Origin: Candidatus Omnitrophota bacterium
GTDB taxonomy: Bacteria; Omnitrophota; Gorgyraeia; Zapsychrales; Zapsychraceae
Assembly: GCA_023247445.1 (NCBI GenBank)
Contig: JAHFGL010000006.1
Span: 58,618 to 93,506 of the forward strand
Length of the DNA stretch: 34,889 nt
Direction of reading: 5' to 3'
Shown here in pieces: positions 7,494 to 31,460 of this stretch. Made by a program: the position numbers and the translations under genes. A model generated the notes under the pieces. The model ran no database searches. It saw only the letters and a program-made list of their open reading frames with translations, and had not been told where the DNA came from. Every line of letters begins with the position of its first letter. Position 1 is the first letter of the stretch.

Positions 7494-7775
7494 ATGAAAC
7501 GAATTGCTTTATTTAGAAATAACGCCCAAACAGCCCTTGAGTATATGCTGCTTCTTATGACTGTCGTTGTTATTGTTATGGTTGGGTTTAAGGTGTTTCT
7601 TCCTCGGGTAACAGGGGCTTCAGGTGTTTATTTGAATAGGACTGCGTATGGTATTCAAGGAAAGCCCCCGCATTGTGGAGATCATACATGTAATGCGGCC
7701 ATTATGGAAAATCAAGAAACGTGTTGTGTTGATTGTCCTACACCGGGTTTAGCCGATATTCAATGTGCCCATTAA
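7494..7775 (+). CDS. small pilin-like (class III leader) Cys-rich protein
   Basis: A 93-residue protein. Residues 1-9 are basic (MKRIALFRN), then 'AQTALEY' at 11-17 precedes a long hydrophobic helix (18-36). This is the layout of class III / type IV-pilin-like leaders, where a peptidase cuts ahead of the Q/A segment and the Glu near +5 is conserved. The remainder is short and has six Cys at 61, 66, 77, 78, 81 and 91, in a pattern like the 'CGDxxCN..E.C..CPxDC' motif seen in exported proteins of archaea and some candidate phyla. It is probably an envelope or pseudopilus-like subunit; no assembly genes lie nearby. Its TAA overlaps the stop of the convergent response regulator gene in a shared TTAA. 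Confidence 0.72.
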   Translation: MKRIALFRNNAQTALEYMLLLMTVVVIVMVGFKVFLPRVTGASGVYLNRTAYGIQGKPPHCGDHTCNAAIMENQETCCVDCPTPGLADIQCAH

Positions 7776-8701
7776 CATTTTCTTTTATCTCGAACAAAGT
7801 TACTCTTCTCAAAACTCTTTGCATATTTCTTTAGTTCGGCCCCAATCTCCCCAATTTGCGCCACATGTGTAATGGGGTGATTGACGGTGCTAACGATACC
7901 AATTGAAATCGACAATAACCCAAATCTTTGTTCTTTGCCTTGACGATCTTGGCTTAGAATAAATCCAGCCTTGCGATCTTCTTCGTTATAAAAGTCGAGC
8001 ACCCTTTGATTGAAATCATCAATAATCTTTTGACAGATTTCATCAACATCTTTGTCTTCAGCAACAAAAACAAAATCGTCTCCACCAATATGTCCAACGA
8101 AGGACTCAGATCCAGATTTATCGCGGACATCTTTAATAAGAATTCTCGCGGTTTCTCGAATCACTTGATCGCCGTGTTCAAACCCATACTTATCATTATA
8201 GGCTTTAAATTTATCAAGATCAGCGTATCCAACGGCGAAAGACTTTTTTGTATCAATGCATCTTTGTAATTCTTCCATGATGGATGTGTTGCCGGGAAGA
8301 TGAGTAAGGGGATTAGCATCAAGACTTCGGGTTGTTCGTCGTAAAATCATTTTGATACGGGCCAAAAGTTCATCCGGGGCAAACGGCTTAACAATGTAAT
8401 CATCAACACCCGCTTCAATTCCACCGATTTTATCTTGAACTTCTCCTTTACCAGTGAGCATAATAATTGGAATGTGTCGTAAGAGAATATCTTTCTTAAG
8501 GGTTTTGCAAAATTCTCGTCCATTCATGACAGGCATCATATAGTCGCAGACAATAAGATCTGGTAGTTTTTGTTGCACCATTTGTACGCCTTCCGCGCCA
8601 TTATTGGCTTGAATGACTTCATAAAACTCGGACAGGGTTAATTTTAAAACATCCAAAATATCTGGATCATCATCAACGGTAAGAATCTTTTCTTTTCTCA
8701 T
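7772..8701 (-). CDS. response regulator with GGDEF (diguanylate cyclase-like) domain
   Basis: 309 residues. A receiver domain (1-120) has the acidic pocket 'DDD' at 10-12, phosphoacceptor D53 ('VCDYMMP') and K105 ('IVKPF'). A GGDEF-family domain (about 128-300) starts with 'LTHLPGN', contains 'DLDKFKAYNDKYG' (161-173) for metal and guanine binding, and has the signature 'GGDDF' at 206-210 in place of GG[D/E]EF. No RxxD inhibitory site lies five residues before the signature. GGDDF variants with an LPGN start occur in many bacterial regulators, and activity cannot be decided from sequence. It is a PleD-like output for the kinase immediately upstream (9-base gap), likely making cyclic di-GMP when phosphorylated. 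Third gene of the FIST-kinase-regulator operon. Confidence 0.9.
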   Translation of the reverse strand: MRKEKILTVDDDPDILDVLKLTLSEFYEVIQANNGAEGVQMVQQKLPDLIVCDYMMPVMNGREFCKTLKKDILLRHIPIIMLTGKGEVQDKIGGIEAGVDDYIVKPFAPDELLARIKMILRRTTRSLDANPLTHLPGNTSIMEELQRCIDTKKSFAVGYADLDKFKAYNDKYGFEHGDQVIRETARILIKDVRDKSGSESFVGHIGGDDFVFVAEDKDVDEICQKIIDDFNQRVLDFYNEEDRKAGFILSQDRQGKEQRFGLLSISIGIVSTVNHPITHVAQIGEIGAELKKYAKSFEKSNFVRDKRKC

Positions 8702-22254: not shown

Positions 22255-22917
22255 ATGCTCTATATTGTTTCCACACCCATTGGAAATTTAAAAGATATTA
22301 CCTTACGCGCATTGGAAACACTAAAGAGTGTTGATTTAATCGCCGCCGAAGACACCCGTCACACCAGGATTTTATGTCAGCATTATGATATTCAAACCCC
22401 GCTGACGAGTTATTTTGAACACAATGAGGTTCAAAAGGCCGATTATCTTCTGAAGCTTTTAAAAGAAGGGAAGCACATCGCGCTGGTGACAGATGCTGGA
22501 ACGCCAGGCATTAGCGATCCGGGTTATCCCTTAATTAAATTAGCGAAAGAAAATAATATTCCTTTAACCGTTATCCCCGGCCCAACGGCACTGGTGGCGG
22601 CCCTTAATCTTTCTGGATTACCCGCGCACAATTTTGTTTTTGAAGGTTTTTTGCCGGTCAAATCTGGCGCCCGACGTAATAAATTAGAATCATTGAAAGA
22701 AGAGACGCGAACAATTATCTTTTATGAATCACCACACCGCATCTTAAAAACCTTAAAAGATATTCAAGAAGTTTTGAATGATCCTGAAGTTGTTTGTGTT
22801 CGTGAGATAACGAAGAAGTTTGAAGAAGTGAAGAAAGAAAAAGCCTCGCAGCTTATTTTGAATTTTACGAAAAATAATCCGCGAGGCGAATTTGTTTTGT
22901 TATTAAAGATTGTTTAA
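22255..22917 (+). CDS. rsmI: 16S rRNA (cytidine1402-2'-O)-methyltransferase
   Basis: 220 residues of the tetrapyrrole-methylase fold. Diagnostic motifs are 'STPIGNLKDITLRALE' at the start, 'AEDTRHTRILC', 'VTDAGTPGISDPG' for SAM binding and 'FYESPHRI'. RsmI methylates C1402 in the ribosomal P site. The protein is shorter than the usual 270-290 residues because the small C-terminal helical domain is missing; the catalytic core ends in a normal way ('GEFVLLLKI'), so it looks like a natural short form. The last 15 bases overlap the convergent S74 gene. Confidence 0.94.
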   Translation: MLYIVSTPIGNLKDITLRALETLKSVDLIAAEDTRHTRILCQHYDIQTPLTSYFEHNEVQKADYLLKLLKEGKHIALVTDAGTPGISDPGYPLIKLAKENNIPLTVIPGPTALVAALNLSGLPAHNFVFEGFLPVKSGARRNKLESLKEETRTIIFYESPHRILKTLKDIQEVLNDPEVVCVREITKKFEEVKKEKASQLILNFTKNNPRGEFVLLLKIV

Positions 22918-24753
22918 TTTAAGTTTTAAACTTTCCAATTCTTTTTGTTGTTCTTCAATAAGTTTTTGTTGCTCTTGCACCACTTTTGTTAAAACCCCCA
23001 AAACATCCATAGGATCAACCCCTTTACGATCAGTGGTGGCGAGAAGATCAGGAACATCTTCCGCAATAAATCCAACATGAAGATCATCCTTTTGATCTGC
23101 TTTGTATCGGAATTTTATTGGGTTAAGATTGTCGAGGGCTCCTTGTGCTTCTTCTAGCGACAACTCATTAATATCTTTTTTAAATTCACGAGAAGATCCG
23201 GGGGTAATGCTTCCTGTAGCTAAAATATTTCCGACGACATGTAACGTTTCTGTTGGCGCAACGGTGCCGATTCCTACTCGACCTCCCATGATAACGAAAA
23301 CATTTCGTTCAGTTACTTCTTGAGCTTCGGGTTCTAATGCAATCCCTAAAGAACGCGTTCCTCTTACAGTGATTGGCTGAGGACTGACACACATTGCATT
23401 ATCACCAATTGCTTTACATCCACCGCCTAAAGCGATTTGTCCGGCACCACCGCCACCACCAGCTTCGGTTAGAATTCCTGCGGCAAAAGTTCCACTCCCG
23501 ACAGCTTTGGTCACTCGTCCAACTGACATGCAGTATTCACAGTTTGCTACAGCTCCTCCTCCCATAGCAATAGCACCGGTTCCTGATGCTTGAGCTCCGA
23601 CGCCAATAGCTACAGCATATCCAGGTCCGGCGAGAGCTCCAGATCCAATCGCAACAGATCGTTCACCGCTAGCTATAGAGCCAAATCCTGCGGCGAAAGC
23701 AGCATAATTCGTGGCTTGAGAAGATTGTCCAAAAGCAGCAGAACCGTCACCACTTGCTAAATTTCCTATGCCAAAGGCAAATGATGATGGTCCGCTGGCA
23801 ATGTTCTGAACGCCATTTCCATCAGGAGCACCACCAGCAAAGGATTGATGGCCGAGGGATTGAGATTTCCATCCGATAGCAGTTGAACGCGCACCGGTTG
23901 CTATTGTTTCTTCTCCCATAGCAACGGCTCCTAAGCCGTTGGTTATAGTCTTATATCCCATCGCAGTACTATAGTCTCCATTGGTTGTAGTTTCTTTTCC
24001 CATCGCAATTGAATAAGCTGCATTGGAAATATTTTGTTGTCCTAAGGCAATAGAAGCTTGCCTATTAGCCTGATTAGTCAATCCTAATGCGATGGCCGAA
24101 GAACCATTCCCTTGATTATCTTGTCCTAGAGTTACAGAGGCTTGTTGTCCAGAGATGTTATTTATTCCTAGAGCAATAGAACCTCCAAAATTACTATTAA
24201 AACTGGCAATATTGTTATACCCCATGGCCACAGAATATTTTCCAATGTTACTGTCATCCCATTGATTCCCGTCAACATAGCCAGCTCTAAAGGCAGATTT
24301 TCTGGGATACCAAATCAGCTTTGTTCCTGCACCAGCTGTCGTTAAAACAGTACCCGCTCCTTGAGTACCTTTGGCGAGAATTCCACCGTCTCCATTAATG
24401 GATAATTTAAATTCTGGGGTTGAGGTCCCAACTCCAACAAAAATATTGGGATTGCTTTGCGTGTCTGTTGGATAAATGTTATTACCGTTTTGAGACCACG
24501 CCCCAGCCAAAGCTCCCCAAACACCAGTACCACTTCCATTATTATTACAGACTTTGATACTGTTGGTTGTTGAGTCAAAATAAAAAGTTCCTATGTCACA
24601 TGGGTTCGCTAATGTTGCTCGTGGCATAACGCGTAAGCGGTCATAAACACCAAATGGGGAGGGGTAGTAAGTACTAAGGGTAATTTGGTTTTTTTGTGCA
24701 TAGGCTGAGGTGGCCAAAAGAATAATTAGATTGGCTAAAATAAGTTTTTTCAA
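22903..24753 (-). CDS. secreted YadA-head/S74 chaperone protein, paralogue 4 (no dockerin)
   Basis: 616 residues, last gene of the four-gene operon. Signal peptide 1-19 ('...LLATSAYA'), then the shared N-terminal module with 'STYYPSPFGVYDRLRVMP', 'NPCDIGTFYF' and 'KVCNNNGSG'. A conserved 'FRAGYVDGNQWDDSNIGKYS' leads into about 14-residue YadA-like head repeats ('SxAxGxxxxAxG', about 165-460), a left-handed beta roll. Then 'MGGRVGIGT' and an S74 intramolecular chaperone from about 521 with 'GFIAEDVPD', and a coiled coil to the end. No dockerin repeats. The S74 start is 'SSREFKKDI', where paralogues have S-D. Good AGGAG site. No outer-membrane anchor. Confidence 0.85.
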   Translation of the reverse strand: MKKLILANLIILLATSAYAQKNQITLSTYYPSPFGVYDRLRVMPRATLANPCDIGTFYFDSTTNSIKVCNNNGSGTGVWGALAGAWSQNGNNIYPTDTQSNPNIFVGVGTSTPEFKLSINGDGGILAKGTQGAGTVLTTAGAGTKLIWYPRKSAFRAGYVDGNQWDDSNIGKYSVAMGYNNIASFNSNFGGSIALGINNISGQQASVTLGQDNQGNGSSAIALGLTNQANRQASIALGQQNISNAAYSIAMGKETTTNGDYSTAMGYKTITNGLGAVAMGEETIATGARSTAIGWKSQSLGHQSFAGGAPDGNGVQNIASGPSSFAFGIGNLASGDGSAAFGQSSQATNYAAFAAGFGSIASGERSVAIGSGALAGPGYAVAIGVGAQASGTGAIAMGGGAVANCEYCMSVGRVTKAVGSGTFAAGILTEAGGGGGAGQIALGGGCKAIGDNAMCVSPQPITVRGTRSLGIALEPEAQEVTERNVFVIMGGRVGIGTVAPTETLHVVGNILATGSITPGSSREFKKDINELSLEEAQGALDNLNPIKFRYKADQKDDLHVGFIAEDVPDLLATTDRKGVDPMDVLGVLTKVVQEQQKLIEEQQKELESLKLKLNNL

Positions 24754-24769
24754 AGTAATCCTCCCTTAT

Positions 24770-26854
24770 TTACAGTGATAATTTATTTATTTTTGTTTTT
24801 AAATCATCCAGCTCTTTGGTTTGCATTTCGATTTGAGCATTTTGTTGTTGGTAAGTTTTGTCTAGCAGATCTTTTTCGGTTTTTAAAGAGTCGACCTTAT
24901 TTTTTAATTCACGCATCGTTTCAACCATAAATCCTTCAAAACCTCGAGGGTTAAAATATTTTGTATCGTTTATGGTATCAACCCATTCGGGCATAACTTT
25001 TTCAACTTCTTGAGCAATAACGCCGATTTGAGTTCCCGTTAAATTTTCGTGGTTTTTAGGATCTTTCCACTCATATGTTACTCCGCGAAGGTTTAAAATT
25101 TTTTCTAACGATCCACTAATTGTTTTTACATTTTTCTTAAAACGAATATCTGAAGGATTTGTCCAAGTTCCTCCACCTGGTTTAGCGGCGGTACCAACGA
25201 CTTCTAACGGGGCGTTTGGTGCAAGCGTTCCAATGCCGACGTTTCCACCCATAATAACCATTGCGTTAGCTTGAGTGATTGTTCTGGCGGTTGCATCCAA
25301 GTTGATTCCGACAGAATAGGTTCCCGTTGCCGAGACCGTCATATTCTGACCAAAGGTTGTTGAATAATTTCCAGCTGCGACACTGCTACGTCCAAAAGAG
25401 GTTGCATATTGACCTGACGCAGTTGAAAAGGCTCCAATGGCTGTAGAATAAAGACCGCTGGCTAAAGAGTCTGCTCCAATACAAGATGAATAATTAGCTG
25501 TTGCGCTACAATTATCACCAAGGGCTGTAGAATAATCACCTTGAGCTAAAAGTGCTGGACCAATCAGAGTCGAGGCAATGCCACTTGCAGTTCCGTTTTT
25601 TGTACTAATGGCGGTTGAATAATTTCCTGTAGCTTTGGCTTGATAATTTAGGGCTGTTGATGCAATGCCACTGGCGGTATTCTGATCTCCAATAGCGGTT
25701 GAATATATCCCGCTTACTTGATTAAATGTTCCGATACCAACTGAATAATCTGAGCTGATAATATTATTGTCTATTCTAGGTTTAGTGATGTCGGGATCTA
25801 CAAAAACAAAATATCCTATAGCCACAGATGCTTTTCCCGTAACCTGGTTTGAGGCGCCTATAGCAATAGATTCAACACCCTTAGTTGTGTCATATACAAT
25901 TTTAGGATTGTTTTCATAGTTGGAGAAACCCGACCTTCCAGCGGATACGGGATAGTTATTAAGCATTCCTATGGCGACAGAGTTATCTCCTGTAGCAAAG
26001 GATCGAGTTCCTATAGCCACGCCATTTAATTCAGCAAGGCAAGAGTTTGATGAAATAAAGGAAGCCTCTCCATTAGCTAAGCCATTCATGCCTGCAGCAA
26101 AAGAATATTTACCTTTGGCCATGGTAGCATCTCCAAAACCTGCAGAATATTCACCATGATGACTATCTTGGAATTCTCCATTTCCTGCGAAACCTGCTCG
26201 AAAAGAAGATTTTTTGGGATACCACATAAAACGTGCATTTGCATTAGTATTAGATTCTAATGAGACTCCTGAACCATGCGTTCCGGTGGCGATAATAAGC
26301 GTATCAATAAATCTTATTGAACTTCTCTTCACGGTCAACGCAGTGCTAGGGACAGCTGTTCTTGGATCAAAGGGAAGTTGAGTGGCATTATCATAGAGGA
26401 TCATGGAAGCAGAGCTTTGCATGAGATCGGCATCAGCCAGAGTCACAAGACCATCCCCATTAATATCGGCGCGTGGAGATGTTTTTGGAATGATTTTTCC
26501 TTCGAAATCTCGAACCGTTTCATTGTTCAATAATTGTTTTACAATATGAGCATCTGTATAATCGATAGCACCATCTAAGTCAACGTCGCCGGGTGAACCA
26601 ATATTAGAGAAATTCCATGTTCCTCTATTGTGACCGGTTCCATCATCATAACAAATTCCTAACATGTTATTTGCTTTGTCCATGTACATCGTTCCTACTT
26701 CACAGGGATTCGTCATGGCTGGAGCTTTTGGGACAAGTTGGATACGATCATAAAGCCCCATTGGCGTAGGATAAGATGTATTGATGAGCATGTTGTCCGC
26801 CCAGAGGGGAGTAGTTATTCCTAAAATTAATAATAGTAAAATTATTCTTTTCAT
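24770..26854 (-). CDS. secreted dockerin-like/YadA-head/S74 protein, paralogue 3
   Basis: 694 residues. Signal peptide 1-19 ('GITTPLWA'), N-terminal module with 'TSYPTPMGLYDRIQLVP' and 'NPCEVGTMYMD'. Two Ca-binding dockerin-like loops at about 89-150: 'GDVDLDGAIDYTDAH' and 'ADINGDGLVTLADAD', with canonical D-x-D/N-x-D-G spacing. 'KSSFRAGF' leads to YadA-type head repeats (about 240-530), then 'MGGNVGIGT', S74 chaperone from S568 ('SDIRFKKNV', 'GVIAQEVEKVMPEW') and a coiled coil. The S74 domain drives trimer folding and may cleave itself off at the S-D. Overlaps the upstream gene by 4 bases and ends 16 bases before the next. Confidence 0.87.
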   Translation of the reverse strand: MKRIILLLLILGITTPLWADNMLINTSYPTPMGLYDRIQLVPKAPAMTNPCEVGTMYMDKANNMLGICYDDGTGHNRGTWNFSNIGSPGDVDLDGAIDYTDAHIVKQLLNNETVRDFEGKIIPKTSPRADINGDGLVTLADADLMQSSASMILYDNATQLPFDPRTAVPSTALTVKRSSIRFIDTLIIATGTHGSGVSLESNTNANARFMWYPKKSSFRAGFAGNGEFQDSHHGEYSAGFGDATMAKGKYSFAAGMNGLANGEASFISSNSCLAELNGVAIGTRSFATGDNSVAIGMLNNYPVSAGRSGFSNYENNPKIVYDTTKGVESIAIGASNQVTGKASVAIGYFVFVDPDITKPRIDNNIISSDYSVGIGTFNQVSGIYSTAIGDQNTASGIASTALNYQAKATGNYSTAISTKNGTASGIASTLIGPALLAQGDYSTALGDNCSATANYSSCIGADSLASGLYSTAIGAFSTASGQYATSFGRSSVAAGNYSTTFGQNMTVSATGTYSVGINLDATARTITQANAMVIMGGNVGIGTLAPNAPLEVVGTAAKPGGGTWTNPSDIRFKKNVKTISGSLEKILNLRGVTYEWKDPKNHENLTGTQIGVIAQEVEKVMPEWVDTINDTKYFNPRGFEGFMVETMRELKNKVDSLKTEKDLLDKTYQQQNAQIEMQTKELDDLKTKINKLSL

Positions 26855-28905
26855 TTGTTTCTCTTTAGTGACACTTTATTATAATGAGATTTCAACATTT
26901 CGATCTCTTTTTGTTGTTCGTTAATTCTTTGTTGTCTTTGCTCAACAATTTTTCTTGATTCTTGATTAGTTTTTTCTAAAGCTTCAATTTCTTGGTTTAA
27001 CTCCTTAACGGTTTCTATCATTAATCCTTCAAGCCCTCGGATGCTTAAATATTTATAGCCAGTATTCTTAGTTCCAACCCATTCAGGAAAAATTTGTTCG
27101 ACATCTTGGGCGATGAAACCCATTTGTTCTCCCATTAAGTTTCCTTCATCTTCAGGATGAATCCATTCGAATGTTACACCTTGAAGTTTGATGATTTTTT
27201 CTAAAGCCCCATGGAGAGGTTTAATATTCTTCTTTAGTTTTTTATCTGAAGGAGCTGCCCAGTTTCCACCCAGCGAACTAAAAACAGCGGCATTAGCCGC
27301 AACACCACTAACTTCAAGTGTAAATTGAGGGTTGGTTGTTCCGATACCAACATTGCCTCCCATAATAGCCATCGTATTATTTGCGGCTAGAATTATATTA
27401 GGAGATGGGGTGGATATTGAAATACCAAAACTATTATTTCCTTGAACAGTTATATATCGGCCAATGGCCGTTTGATTACTACCAGTCGTTGAAAATAAAT
27501 GCCCAAGACAAATATTCGAAGAACCAGAGCATCCACCGCTTCCTGTAGAGAAAGATTCATCGCCTGCACCAACGTTACTTCCGGATGCAAAGGCCCTATT
27601 ACCTGATGGGCCGCCAATAAGCCCAATACCAACAGAAGAATTACCTGTAAGAGAGCCATTGCCTTCACCAAGCCCAACGGAATAATCACCATTAGTATTT
27701 GTCGTCCACCCCAGTGCAATGGAATATGGTTTCCAGGCTCTAGATTGATAACCGGAGGATAATGAATAAATGCCATCGGATTGTGTACGATAACCGAAGG
27801 TTATAGCATGATTAGCTAAAGGCTTTGTTTCCCAACCAATAGCAATTGAGTCATTTCCACTCGGTTGATTGAAAGAACCTATGGCTATACTTGCAGAGCC
27901 GGTAGTTATATTTTGAGATCCTATGACCATGGAAGAGGTTCCTGCATTATTATCTGACCCCAAAACCACTGCATTATTTCCAACCGTGTTATTTTTTCCA
28001 ATCGCGATACCTCCTCCAGAAGTGATATTATTGCTATCTCCAATGCTGGTCGAGAAGCTACTAGCTACAGATTTGTAACCTAATGCTAGAGAATAATCAC
28101 CAGCTTTTGTTGAATATCCCATGGCAACTGAACGATCTCCTATATTTACATCATCCCACTGATCTCCATCGACATATCCGGCGCGAAAGGCAGATTTCTT
28201 AGGATACCAAATTAATCTTGTGCCAGCCCCAGCAGTTGTCAGAACAGTATCAGAAAGATGTGTGGTAAAGGGAGGACCAGAGCTGAATGTATATGGCGCA
28301 ATAGACATAATAAATCCTGTGAATTTGGCGAAGGAGCCAGTGATTGTTAACGCAGGGTTGTCAACATCTGTTGTTGCATTTGAATAATAGTATTCCATTC
28401 GTGATGAGGGGGGTGTCGGCCAGGCAGCAGCTCCAGACATAAATTGTGAGATTCTGGAAGAATCTAAAGAGCTAATTGTTCCATTTTGTGTAACATCACC
28501 ACGCCACATTTGTTGATTGTTAAATGTTCTTTTTCCGACTATATATTGTAAAATATAGTGTGCATCTTTTACATCTACACGTCCATCTAGGCTAACATCT
28601 CCAAGATCAGTTAGGTTGGTGGCAGAGTCCCAGGAGCCATTGCCAGCACCATCGTCATAACAAAGTTTCAAAAGACTAGTTGTTTTATCGAGGTAAAGAG
28701 TTCCAGGTTCACAGGCGCCCGTTAGAGATGCTCTTGCCGCAAGACGAATGCGATCATAAGCGCCAAAAGGAGAAGGGTAATAAGTGTTTAAGGTTATTGT
28801 ATCTGTTGAATAAGAGAGAGAGGTGGATAGCAAAATAATCCCCGTTATTATCATCGAGATGATTTTTATTTGCCAAGGCCCATTTTTTATTGCACGATGT
28901 ATCAT
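26851..28905 (-). CDS. secreted dockerin-like/YadA-head/S74 protein, paralogue 2
   Basis: 684 residues. A longer signal peptide (about 1-33, after a basic start) precedes 'NTYYPSPFGAYDRIRLAAR' and 'CEPGTLYLDKTTSLLKLC'. Dockerin-like repeats at about 102-158: 'GDVSLDGRVDVKDAH' is canonical, while 'GDVTQNGTISSLDSS' has Asn in place of the key Asp. Then 'AFRAGYVDGDQWDDVNIG', many YadA head repeats ('SIAIGSFNQPSGNDS'), 'MGGNVGIGTTNP', S74 from S553 ('SDKKLKKNI', 'GFIAQDVEQIFPEW') and a long Gln-rich coiled coil. Overlaps both neighbours by ATGA, so translation is coupled. Confidence 0.87.
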   Translation of the reverse strand: MIHRAIKNGPWQIKIISMIITGIILLSTSLSYSTDTITLNTYYPSPFGAYDRIRLAARASLTGACEPGTLYLDKTTSLLKLCYDDGAGNGSWDSATNLTDLGDVSLDGRVDVKDAHYILQYIVGKRTFNNQQMWRGDVTQNGTISSLDSSRISQFMSGAAAWPTPPSSRMEYYYSNATTDVDNPALTITGSFAKFTGFIMSIAPYTFSSGPPFTTHLSDTVLTTAGAGTRLIWYPKKSAFRAGYVDGDQWDDVNIGDRSVAMGYSTKAGDYSLALGYKSVASSFSTSIGDSNNITSGGGIAIGKNNTVGNNAVVLGSDNNAGTSSMVIGSQNITTGSASIAIGSFNQPSGNDSIAIGWETKPLANHAITFGYRTQSDGIYSLSSGYQSRAWKPYSIALGWTTNTNGDYSVGLGEGNGSLTGNSSVGIGLIGGPSGNRAFASGSNVGAGDESFSTGSGGCSGSSNICLGHLFSTTGSNQTAIGRYITVQGNNSFGISISTPSPNIILAANNTMAIMGGNVGIGTTNPQFTLEVSGVAANAAVFSSLGGNWAAPSDKKLKKNIKPLHGALEKIIKLQGVTFEWIHPEDEGNLMGEQMGFIAQDVEQIFPEWVGTKNTGYKYLSIRGLEGLMIETVKELNQEIEALEKTNQESRKIVEQRQQRINEQQKEIEMLKSHYNKVSLKRNK

Positions 28906-31055
28906 TTTTTTGATAGCTGATCTAATTTTGTTTTTAAATCGTTAATTGTTTCAGCATTGTTATTTAATTGGTTGTTAAATTCTTCAAAATTTTCTTTTTC
29001 CCTCAATGAGTCTACGTGATGTTTTAAATCTTTAATTGATTCAACTAATAAAGCTTCAAATCCACGAATAGTTAAACTTTTGTAACCATTGCTATCAGTG
29101 CTAACCCATTCGGGAAAAATTTCTTCAACTTCTTGAGCAATGAAACCCAGTTGAGGATTAGTTAAATTTCCATGTTCCTCTGGTTTAATCCATTCAAAAG
29201 TAACGCCACGTAAACGAAGTAATTTATCTAAAGCCCCATGAAGAGGTTGAATATTCTTTTTCAATCGAATATCTGAAGTAGCTGACCAGCCACCCCCACC
29301 GGTTTTTATCGGTGAGACCGCCCCAGTTACTTCAAGAAGGAAAGCTGGATTGGTTTTTCCTATACCAACATTGCCTCCCATGACAACTAATATATCTGAC
29401 TGAATAACAGTTGAAGCACTTTGATCATTTAAAGCAAACGCAATAGAGCGATCACCATTGACGGTAATTCCTCTTCCAAAAGCCTTAGAACCAAATCCAA
29501 TGGCTTTGGTTGCATAGCCAAAGGCTTGAGAAACAGGTCCTTCGGCACGAGTTCCATAACCACTAGCAAAAGTATTGTCATTAAGAGCTACAGTATTTGA
29601 TCCGATAGCCACGGCACCTTGACCAGAATTACCAACAACTCCTGTGCTTCCAGCTGTGGTTTGATATCCTGAGGCAAAAGAACCTTTTCCTTTAGAAGTT
29701 GTTTCATATCCAAAGGCAAAAGCTGCATAACAAGTAAATCGGCTACAGCCTGTGGCTAAGGTTTTGTATCCTGAGGCAATACCGGCATCTATTTCTGATC
29801 TTGTTTGATATCCAAAGGCCATTGAATAATTTGACGTAGAGTGTGTTTGATATCCTGAAGATAATGATGTTGGATATGATGTGCCAGACCATCTATTAAC
29901 ACCATCATAAGGTCCTGAGGAAGGATAGGGTGTGGCAAAAACGGTTTGTGAACTTACGTTGCTTGCTTCTGTTTCAAAGCCAAGAGCGAGGGTAAAGCTT
30001 CCTCCAGTGGACGCATTAGAATCGCCCATAGCAATGGAGTTTTGTGTAGAGGCGATGTTTCCATGTCCCATGGCAATAGAGTAAGCTCCGCTTGCTGTAT
30101 TTGTTTGACCAATTGCAATGGCAGAATATCCGCTGGCAACACTTGAAAGCCCACCGGAAAACGAGCTGGTACCGCTCGCCGTTGTGCTGTTTCCTGTCGC
30201 TGTTGCATAATCTCCGGAGGCTAGGTTATTTTTTCCAAAAGCTGTTGAGGCAATTCCTGTTGCTTTGTTGCCATATCCAAAGGCAACAGAATAATCCCCG
30301 ATGTTTGCGTCATCCCATTGATCAGCATCAACATAACCAGCGCGAAAAGCAGCTTTTGCAGGTTCCCATATAAATCGTGTGCCAGCACCTGTTGGTATTC
30401 TTACATCAGTGGCTCTTACATCAGGCAGCGCAGGCGGAGGGACATAAGTGCCTGTGGCTAATATTAAACCGTCGTTAAAATAAGTTGTACCATTAACAGT
30501 AAGTGGATTATACTCAATCATGGTTGGCTGAACAGAAGCAAAATATCCTATTCTAGCTGTTGGAGCATCAGTTGTCGCTCCAGTAATATAATTGGTAATT
30601 TTATTAGCATCAGCTAATGTCAAAATTCCATCTTGGTCCACATCGGCCCGCCAAGTAGTCTTAGGAATAGTTTTTTTCCTAAAATCGACGACTGTTTCAT
30701 TATTAATCAACTGCTTAATGACATTTGCATCGGTAAGATCGCGTACCCCATCTAAATCAATATCTCCAATAATGTTATCGTAAAAATAATTCCACTGACC
30801 TATGTTTTGACCAGAGTTGTCATCGCCACAAATTTTTAAAAAGTTGGAGGTTTTATCAAAATAAATGGACCCGATATCACAGGGATTGGTAAAGGCCGTG
30901 GTTTTAGGTACTAAGCGAATACGGTCATAAGATATGTAGGGAGTGGGATAATAGGTGACAAATATCACTTTTCCTGCGTGAGCAGCCGATGAAAAAAGAA
31001 GTAAAAAGAGGCATGTTGTATAGAGAGTTTTTTTCATTATATTTTTCTGTGCCAT
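28902..31055 (-). CDS. secreted dockerin-like/YadA-head/S74 protein, paralogue 1 (first in riboswitch operon)
   Basis: 717 residues from 31055. Signal peptide ends about 27 ('LLFSSAAHA'). A start at 31037 (MKKTLY) gives a more normal signal peptide and avoids using an ATG that abuts the T tract of the terminator; both are possible. N-terminal module 'VTYYPTPYISYDRIRLVP', dockerin-like loops at about 97-160 ('GDIDLDGVRDLTDAN', 'ADVDQDGILTLADAN'), 'AFRAGYVDADQWDDANIG', YadA head repeats (about 250-570) with a non-repeat insert near 360-400, 'MGGNVGIGKTNP', S74 from S594 ('SDIRLKKNI', 'GFIAQEVEEIFPEW') and a coiled coil. Predicted exported trimeric fibre. Its leader carries a GEMM-I riboswitch. 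Confidence 0.87.
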   Translation of the reverse strand: MAQKNIMKKTLYTTCLFLLLFSSAAHAGKVIFVTYYPTPYISYDRIRLVPKTTAFTNPCDIGSIYFDKTSNFLKICGDDNSGQNIGQWNYFYDNIIGDIDLDGVRDLTDANVIKQLINNETVVDFRKKTIPKTTWRADVDQDGILTLADANKITNYITGATTDAPTARIGYFASVQPTMIEYNPLTVNGTTYFNDGLILATGTYVPPPALPDVRATDVRIPTGAGTRFIWEPAKAAFRAGYVDADQWDDANIGDYSVAFGYGNKATGIASTAFGKNNLASGDYATATGNSTTASGTSSFSGGLSSVASGYSAIAIGQTNTASGAYSIAMGHGNIASTQNSIAMGDSNASTGGSFTLALGFETEASNVSSQTVFATPYPSSGPYDGVNRWSGTSYPTSLSSGYQTHSTSNYSMAFGYQTRSEIDAGIASGYKTLATGCSRFTCYAAFAFGYETTSKGKGSFASGYQTTAGSTGVVGNSGQGAVAIGSNTVALNDNTFASGYGTRAEGPVSQAFGYATKAIGFGSKAFGRGITVNGDRSIAFALNDQSASTVIQSDILVVMGGNVGIGKTNPAFLLEVTGAVSPIKTGGGGWSATSDIRLKKNIQPLHGALDKLLRLRGVTFEWIKPEEHGNLTNPQLGFIAQEVEEIFPEWVSTDSNGYKSLTIRGFEALLVESIKDLKHHVDSLREKENFEEFNNQLNNNAETINDLKTKLDQLSKK

Positions 31056-31088
31056 AAAAAAACCTATTTCCCATCGTAGGAAATAGGT
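31056..31088 (-). terminator. riboswitch expression platform: intrinsic terminator ahead of the S74 operon
   Basis: On the minus strand ACCTATTTCC pairs perfectly with GGAAATAGGT (plus 62-71 and 79-88 of the 31000s), loop of 7 bases, followed by seven T immediately before the ATG at 31055. It lies about 15 bases after the aptamer and would stop transcription before the first gene. The same hairpin also holds the only AGG near the ATG, so it could block translation as well. Confidence 0.85.
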
Positions 31089-31097
31089 CGCAAAACT

Positions 31098-31200
31098 ATT
31101 TTGTTGGAGTAGCTGGCTACCCTAGATATATCTTTATGTGTCCAGGGCCCTGTAGCTTTGCGTCCCATCCTTACGAATGGTTTACCTTTGTTCACAACTT
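31098..31200 (-). ncRNA. GEMM-I (cyclic di-GMP-I) riboswitch aptamer
   Basis: Read on the minus strand. The conserved core 'AAACC' + stem-loop CCATTC-GTAA-GGATGG (31180-31165, GNRA tetraloop) + 'GGGACGCAAAGC' is the hallmark of GEMM-I. A second helix CCCTGGA (31147-31141) / TCTAGGG (31126-31120) has one G-U pair. Then 'GGTAGCCAGCTAC' follows, as in GEMM RNAs, and GTTG/CAAC can close P1. Aligned from memory to Vibrio Vc2, the base at the position of G20 is G ('AAAGGTAAACC'), which favours c-di-GMP over cGAMP. The terminator downstream gives an expression platform. It controls the four-gene S74 operon. Confidence 0.88.
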
Positions 31201-31204
31201 TCGT

Positions 31205-31212
31205 CCCCCCCC
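31205..31212 (-). repeat. G8 homopolymer between promoter and riboswitch
   Basis: Eight C on the plus strand (eight G in the transcript), the longest G/C run noticed here. It lies between the promoter at 31230-31258 and the aptamer, in the transcribed leader. Such runs slip during replication. Confidence 0.7.
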
Positions 31213-31229
31213 ATCTGTCTTACAGTAAA

Positions 31230-31258
31230 AGTATATTATATATATATTGAATCATCAA
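31230..31258 (-). promoter_or_regulatory. sigma70-type promoter of the riboswitch/S74 operon
   Basis: On the minus strand TTGATG (plus 31253-31258) and TATACT (plus 31230-31235) are separated by exactly 17 AT-rich bases. Transcription would begin near 31223, upstream of the G8 tract and aptamer. It diverges from the pyrR promoter. Confidence 0.75.
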
Positions 31259-31341: not shown

Positions 31342-31356
31342 TTGAACAAATCTTAA

Positions 31357-31387
31357 CCTTTAATCCGATCCTGTGAGATTGGGAAGG
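31357..31387 (+). promoter_or_regulatory. PyrR-binding anti-antiterminator hairpin
   Basis: Upper stem CCGATC (31365-31370) pairs with GATTGG (31377-31382), one G-U, closing the hexaloop CTGTGA (31371-31376). This fits the CNGNGA hexaloop known for Bacillus-type PyrR sites. A 5' internal bulge (TAAT) and lower stem CCTT (31357-31360) / AAGG (31384-31387) follow, as in that family. PyrR with UMP would stabilise it. GTGAG (31373-31377) in and next to the loop is complementary to CTCAC (31426-31430) in the terminator, so the antiterminator and this hairpin exclude each other. Confidence 0.85.
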
Positions 31388-31424
31388 CCTTATGAAAAGT
31401 TTTAAAATAGTGGTAAACAAAAAA

Positions 31425-31460
31425 GCTCACCTTCGAACCGAAGCGTGGGCATTTTTTTTA
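31425..31460 (+). terminator. pyr attenuator terminator
   Basis: GCTCAC+CTTCG (31425-31435) pairs with CGAAG, one bulged C, and GTGGGC (31439-31450); loop AAC; eight T follow (31452-31459). It ends transcription ahead of pyrR when PyrR-UMP is bound upstream. Confidence 0.9.

Follow-up and report, generated by a model that had tools for sequence, protein, structure and literature searches.

Riboswitches of the c-di-GMP-I class (GEMM-I, Rfam RF01051) are already known to act through transcription terminators and to have adhesin genes among their targets, including an adhesin under an ON switch (PMC4933901). This ON switch, Bc2, acts by transcription termination upstream of cap in Bacillus thuringiensis, a gene for a collagen adhesion protein that is anchored in the Gram-positive cell wall (PMC4933901). 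The pilM riboswitch of Geobacter metallireducens, which has a closely related aptamer with A20 and specificity for cGAMP, precedes a pilus-related target and works as an ON switch through a terminator made from aptamer sequence (PMC9262584). The OFF switch Cd1 of Clostridioides difficile has a separate terminator that can form beside the folded aptamer, an antiterminator that takes up the aptamer 3' strand and thereby disrupts the binding pocket, and a transient ON fold (PMC9262584).

The locus described here comes from the Omnitrophota, an almost wholly uncultured phylum in which an epibiotic or predatory life is presumed for many members (PMC10066038). The window, which is the whole stretch of 34,889 nucleotides analysed from contig JAHFGL010000006.1, contains a minus-strand leader that we consider, with a probability of about three in four, to be a c-di-GMP-I riboswitch controlling a four-gene operon by transcription termination as an OFF switch, its ligand and direction of control both being predicted. 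The leader agrees with RF01051 in its full-length match above the cut-off, GNRA-type P1b loop, G20/A47/C92 bases, position in a 5' leader and terminator platform, and differs from the known members in its uncultured host phylum and in its target, an operon encoding dockerin, YadA-head and S74 domains. Like Bc2, it is a termination switch placed before a putative surface adhesin. It shares the terminator platform with pilM, and many Omnitrophota switches precede pilin genes too. The three features of Cd1 are all predicted for the window RNA, but its antiterminator is built from the P1b 3' strand and the core, which belong to the aptamer's 5' half. Judging by the open-access literature, what is new here is the phylum, the target of S74/dockerin proteins and the antiterminator in its details. 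No papers joining Omnitrophota and c-di-GMP were found in the open-access literature, which is weak evidence because most subscription papers lie outside it, and the word riboswitch is absent from the main Omnitrophota survey. The earlier note on this DNA had called the target class one not usually linked to such control; this appears correct for S74/dockerin proteins, but adhesin and pilus targets were known before (cap, PMC4933901).

The leader contains the following elements:

31230..31258, minus strand: promoter-like pair TTGATG-17-TATACT
31105..31196, minus strand: c-di-GMP-I aptamer, from the RF01051 alignment and the family scan, with contact bases G20 at 31186, A47 at 31159 and C92 at 31109
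31165..31180, minus strand: P1b hairpin of the aptamer, CCAUUC-GUAA-GGAUGG, from the Rfam alignment and the minimum-energy fold
31056..31089, minus strand: intrinsic terminator, with a 13-bp stem (31089-31061) and seven T (31062-31056), from sequence and folding

The Infernal comparison with RF01051 that the earlier note had proposed returned a match to the full model (1-87) on the minus strand at 31196-31105, with 54.7 bits against a gathering score of 35. The core that it had described is in place in all its elements, namely the GUAA tetraloop of P1b (31174-31171), GGGACGCAAAGC (31166-31155) and GGTAGCCAGC (31121-31112). The contact triad G20, A47, C92 is canonical, in the numbering of the Vc2 structure. 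The covariance model of the c-di-GMP-I-GGC variant (RF03167) scored 58.8 bits in a restricted search, which is higher than the RF01051 score, though slightly below its own cut-off of 59, and four family members have an A at position 20, so it was considered whether the leader senses 3',3'-cGAMP or the ligand of the c-di-GMP-I-GGC variant by an unchanged mechanism. We hold this to be quite improbable. The GGC variant has G at position 47 (consensus GACGCGAA), whereas the leader reads GACGCAAA with A at 47, and aptamers of the cGAMP type (GEMM-Ib) have A at position 20, where the leader has G (31186). The GGC variant was rejected on base 47 and the cGAMP class on base 20. Judged by these two positions, the leader RNA therefore belongs with the canonical c-di-GMP aptamers, c-di-GMP being its predicted ligand, and the same G-A-C triad (20/47/92) is common to 69 candidates of the family scan. 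Position 20 was also described as guiding selectivity between cyclic dinucleotides (PMC9262584).

Three other riboswitches in the window's own genome have A, A and C at position 20 (G000:C23:140795-140881, G000:C10:5639-5713 and G000:C70:26852-26957, respectively), which suggests altered specificity, A being the cGAMP type; the C23 riboswitch has no clear terminator, and its position 20 was read by eye. Three family candidates (L163, L249, L259) have T for C at the presumed position C92.

The terminator lies 19 nucleotides downstream of the aptamer, and its stem of 13 pairs has a folding energy of -15.5 kcal/mol. Its T tract directly abuts the first ATG at 31055, as had been claimed. The second ATG at 31037 (MKKTLYTTCLFLLLFSSAAHA), which opens a typical signal peptide, is the likelier start of gene 1. 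The 17-bp-spaced promoter, also claimed before, is present as a pair with 9/12 consensus matches; chance alone would yield roughly two pairs of this quality in the 700 bases scanned, so that by consensus alone it is a weak candidate. A TATACT-like box, however, occurs upstream of 62/73 riboswitches of the family, against 36.5 +/- 4.3 in shuffles. The transcription start site presumably lies near 31224. The terminator-based platform of the earlier note finds support when the leader is set beside 73 further riboswitch candidates from the lineage. The note was silent on the direction of control, and here the evidence points to an OFF switch, in which a third structure is predicted to compete with the aptamer:

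31153..31176, minus strand: antiterminator 5' strand, consisting of the end of the P1b 5' strand, the P1b loop, the P1b 3' strand and the ligand-binding core, from the duplex computation
31074..31098, minus strand: antiterminator 3' strand, consisting of the linker and the terminator 5' arm, from the duplex computation and the minimum-energy fold of transcripts of 151-155 nt

The antiterminator duplex has 22 bp, includes the ligand-contact base A47, and reaches -26.4 kcal/mol, compared with -9.7 +/- 2.6 kcal/mol for shuffled sequences, none of which was as good (0/1000). Since its 5' strand is the aptamer's own P1b and core, bound c-di-GMP should favour termination. In the folding and duplex computations, the antiterminator is incompatible with the aptamer, while the terminator is compatible with it, which is the arrangement of Cd1-type switches: the aptamer and terminator occupy separate sequence and appear together in the best fold. 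Folds of the growing transcript pass from the aptamer alone (to about 150 nt) through the antiterminator (151-158 nt) to the aptamer plus terminator (from about 160 nt), and this order is unchanged for assumed starts from 31226 to 31205. For the assumed start, the antiterminator has a small computed advantage of 0.2-3 kcal/mol, which lasts for only about ten nucleotides. At full length, the RNA without ligand favours the aptamer-plus-terminator fold by 11 kcal/mol. Therefore, the ON state must be kinetic, as was likewise described for Cd1 (PMC9262584).

The reverse direction, in which c-di-GMP would block the terminator and induce the fibres in the manner of Bc2/cap or pilM, has precedents in an adhesin target (PMC4933901) and a pilus target (PMC9262584), and it would agree with the rule that attachment is usually favoured by high c-di-GMP. 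The stability of the terminator fold in the full-length RNA without ligand also fits an ON switch. Nevertheless, terminators of the pilM kind use aptamer sequence and are mutually exclusive with the aptamer, whereas the two structures are separate in the window RNA, and the sequence that excludes the terminator here excludes the aptamer as well. Control in the ON direction is thus unlikely, and it was rejected as the main reading because the terminator and aptamer do not overlap.

The pairing that underlies the OFF switch was compared across the family, where a terminator-like hairpin follows the aptamer in 68/74 candidate riboswitches. Pairing of the terminator 5' arm with the P1b loop and 3' strand is stronger inside one RNA than when the partners come from different RNAs (z -4.8, 0/5000 permutations; n=68). 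The preference holds with the linker and core included, in a non-redundant set collapsed to 45 (z -4.4), and separately for pilin loci (z -2.8) and non-pilin loci (z -3.4). Common descent is not entirely eliminated by the permutations, although the result survived both the collapsing and the splitting of the set. For all five riboswitches ahead of the S74 fibre family, the pairing ranks in the best 9%. An alternative pairing with the P3 3' strand is weaker (z -3.0, and z -1.5 after collapsing) and is seen in some relatives. Across the family, pairing between linker and core barely exceeds that of shuffles (-0.72 +/- 0.25 kcal/mol), yet it is very strong in the window RNA, and clear cases of covariation between the third base of the core and the linker base were too few.

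The following course of events can be proposed for the OFF switch. The polymerase would start near 31224 and produce the aptamer. If c-di-GMP binds, it would lock the P1b hairpin and the core, leaving the terminator 5' arm free to pair with its own 3' arm, and transcription would halt ahead of gene 1. If c-di-GMP is lacking, the linker and the 5' arm of the terminator, being transcribed earlier than the 3' arm, may invade the P1b 3' strand and core; the resulting 22-bp antiterminator would destroy the binding pocket, and the polymerase would continue into the operon. At low c-di-GMP, exported trimeric β-structured fibres would probably be made, and their C-terminal S74 chaperone would cleave itself off after folding.

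The four genes, the co-transcription of which is presumed, are:

28902..31055, minus strand: gene 1, secreted dockerin/YadA-head/S74 protein of 717 aa (711 aa from 31037), with the dockerin slightly below the Pfam cut-off
26851..28905, minus strand: gene 2, dockerin/YadA-head/S74 paralogue of 684 aa, overlapping gene 1
24770..26854, minus strand: gene 3, dockerin/YadA-head/S74 paralogue of 694 aa, overlapping gene 2
22903..24753, minus strand: gene 4, YadA-head/S74 paralogue without dockerin, 616 aa, with a TTG start and a 16-base gap to gene 3

The products of genes 2-4 are 36-39% identical to that of gene 1. Each of the four proteins consists of an export signal, a common N-terminal region, a dockerin in three of them, YadA-head repeats (PF05658, above the cut-off in all four) and an S74 chaperone (PF13884, also above the cut-off in all four), in which Ser588, Lys593 and Lys594 are invariant. 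The C-terminus is formed by S74 and a probable coiled coil. Solved structures show YadA heads as trimers, and the S74 domains of phage fibres trimerise and self-cleave; therefore, secreted trimeric fibres are our best guess for the operon products, by analogy, and a role in adhesion would be a further step. Against known structures in the PDB, a single chain of these proteins matches both the YadA head of BpaC (7o23, 1.9e-13) and the S74 domain of a tail fibre (6f45, 6e-4). The proteins thus resemble trimeric autotransporter adhesins and S74 phage tail fibres at once, with YadA-head repeats and an S74 chaperone in one chain, and differ from both in the TYYPTP/Cys N-terminal region, in dockerins without a genomic cohesin, and in the YadA membrane anchor, of which none was found among Pfam matches up to E 0.1. 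As no cohesin was found in the genome despite the dockerins, cellulosomal docking was rejected.

The common N-terminal region contains TYYPTPxxxYDRIRLVP and two cysteines, has no Pfam match, and was predicted poorly as a structure (mean pLDDT 55). The named records that match this part are from Omnitrophota. In a more general form (TYYPxPxGxYxxLRLxP, then C..GTxYxD...L..C...W), likewise without a Pfam match, the region heads many different secreted proteins across the phylum (window 22903-31055; L142-L159). Relatives outside Omnitrophota, mostly from Bacteroidetes, match chiefly the YadA-head and S74 parts and were left out of the regulation argument.

The S74 domains give strong PHROG tail-fibre matches, as would be expected if the four genes were a phage tail-fibre remnant and the riboswitch an accidental neighbour. 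However, the surrounding genes are the housekeeping genes pyrR, pyrB, pyrC and rsmI, in other Omnitrophota (L068, L153) the interval from pyrR to rsmI likewise holds related proteins, and both signal peptides and YadA heads are present in the four products. Furthermore, the order of riboswitch, terminator and related gene recurs in L068, L140, L141 and L147, which makes five loci with the window, and the L068 cluster has the identical chromosomal place, from pyrR to rsmI. The phage origin was rejected on synteny and signal peptides, and we consider it highly improbable. Clusters adjoining pyr genes in L145, L151 and L153 have no riboswitch above the cut-off; thus, predicted riboswitch control of S74 fibre loci is recurrent, not universal.

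The window's genome contains ten c-di-GMP-I riboswitches. Matches to this class were found in all 32 genomes of the family and in 70 of the 97 sampled across the phylum, and in none of 14 control genomes. Pilin-like genes lie downstream of 29/68 terminator-bearing riboswitches of the family (about 40%), and by this count surface structures are an ordinary target class. We put it at somewhat below even odds that Omnitrophota have a phylum-wide c-di-GMP-I regulon of surface structures (type IV pilins, S74 fibres and other secreted proteins), which is largely switched OFF by terminator 5' arms attacking the P1b strand and core. If this is true, surface appendages would be shut down by high c-di-GMP, contrary to the rule that it usually promotes attachment, and this opposite direction would bear on the timing of pilus and fibre production. 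Riboswitches offer a regulatory connection open to study outside the organism, with the leader transcribed in vitro, and the ten switches of this one genome, together with their occurrence in most sampled Omnitrophota, would provide an initial chart of the genes that answer to a known signal in the phylum.

The genome encodes nine complete GGDEF domains, the motif being GGDEF, GGEEF or AGDEF, which suggests that the host can make c-di-GMP; a tenth, more divergent one (GGDDF) is encoded inside the window by the gene at 7772-8701. The single EAL match, against ten GGDEF matches, scores slightly under the cut-off and sits at the edge of a contig (G000:C41:18-305); c-di-GMP may be broken down by other enzymes such as HD-GYP. 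Closely spaced pairs of c-di-GMP-I aptamers, with both members on one strand, occur in three genomes of the set (G001:C119, G020:C224, G025:C86) and are possible tandem riboswitches.

On the plus strand of the window, 31353-31459, ahead of the divergent genes pyrR-pyrB-pyrC, matches RF00515 with 38.5 bits, below the cut-off of 54, and its relatives in L068 and L153 score above the cut-off. The segment is probably a PyrR-binding attenuator leader. With a PyrR-type leader on one side and the c-di-GMP-I leader on the other, the intergenic region would hold two opposite RNA-based attenuators.
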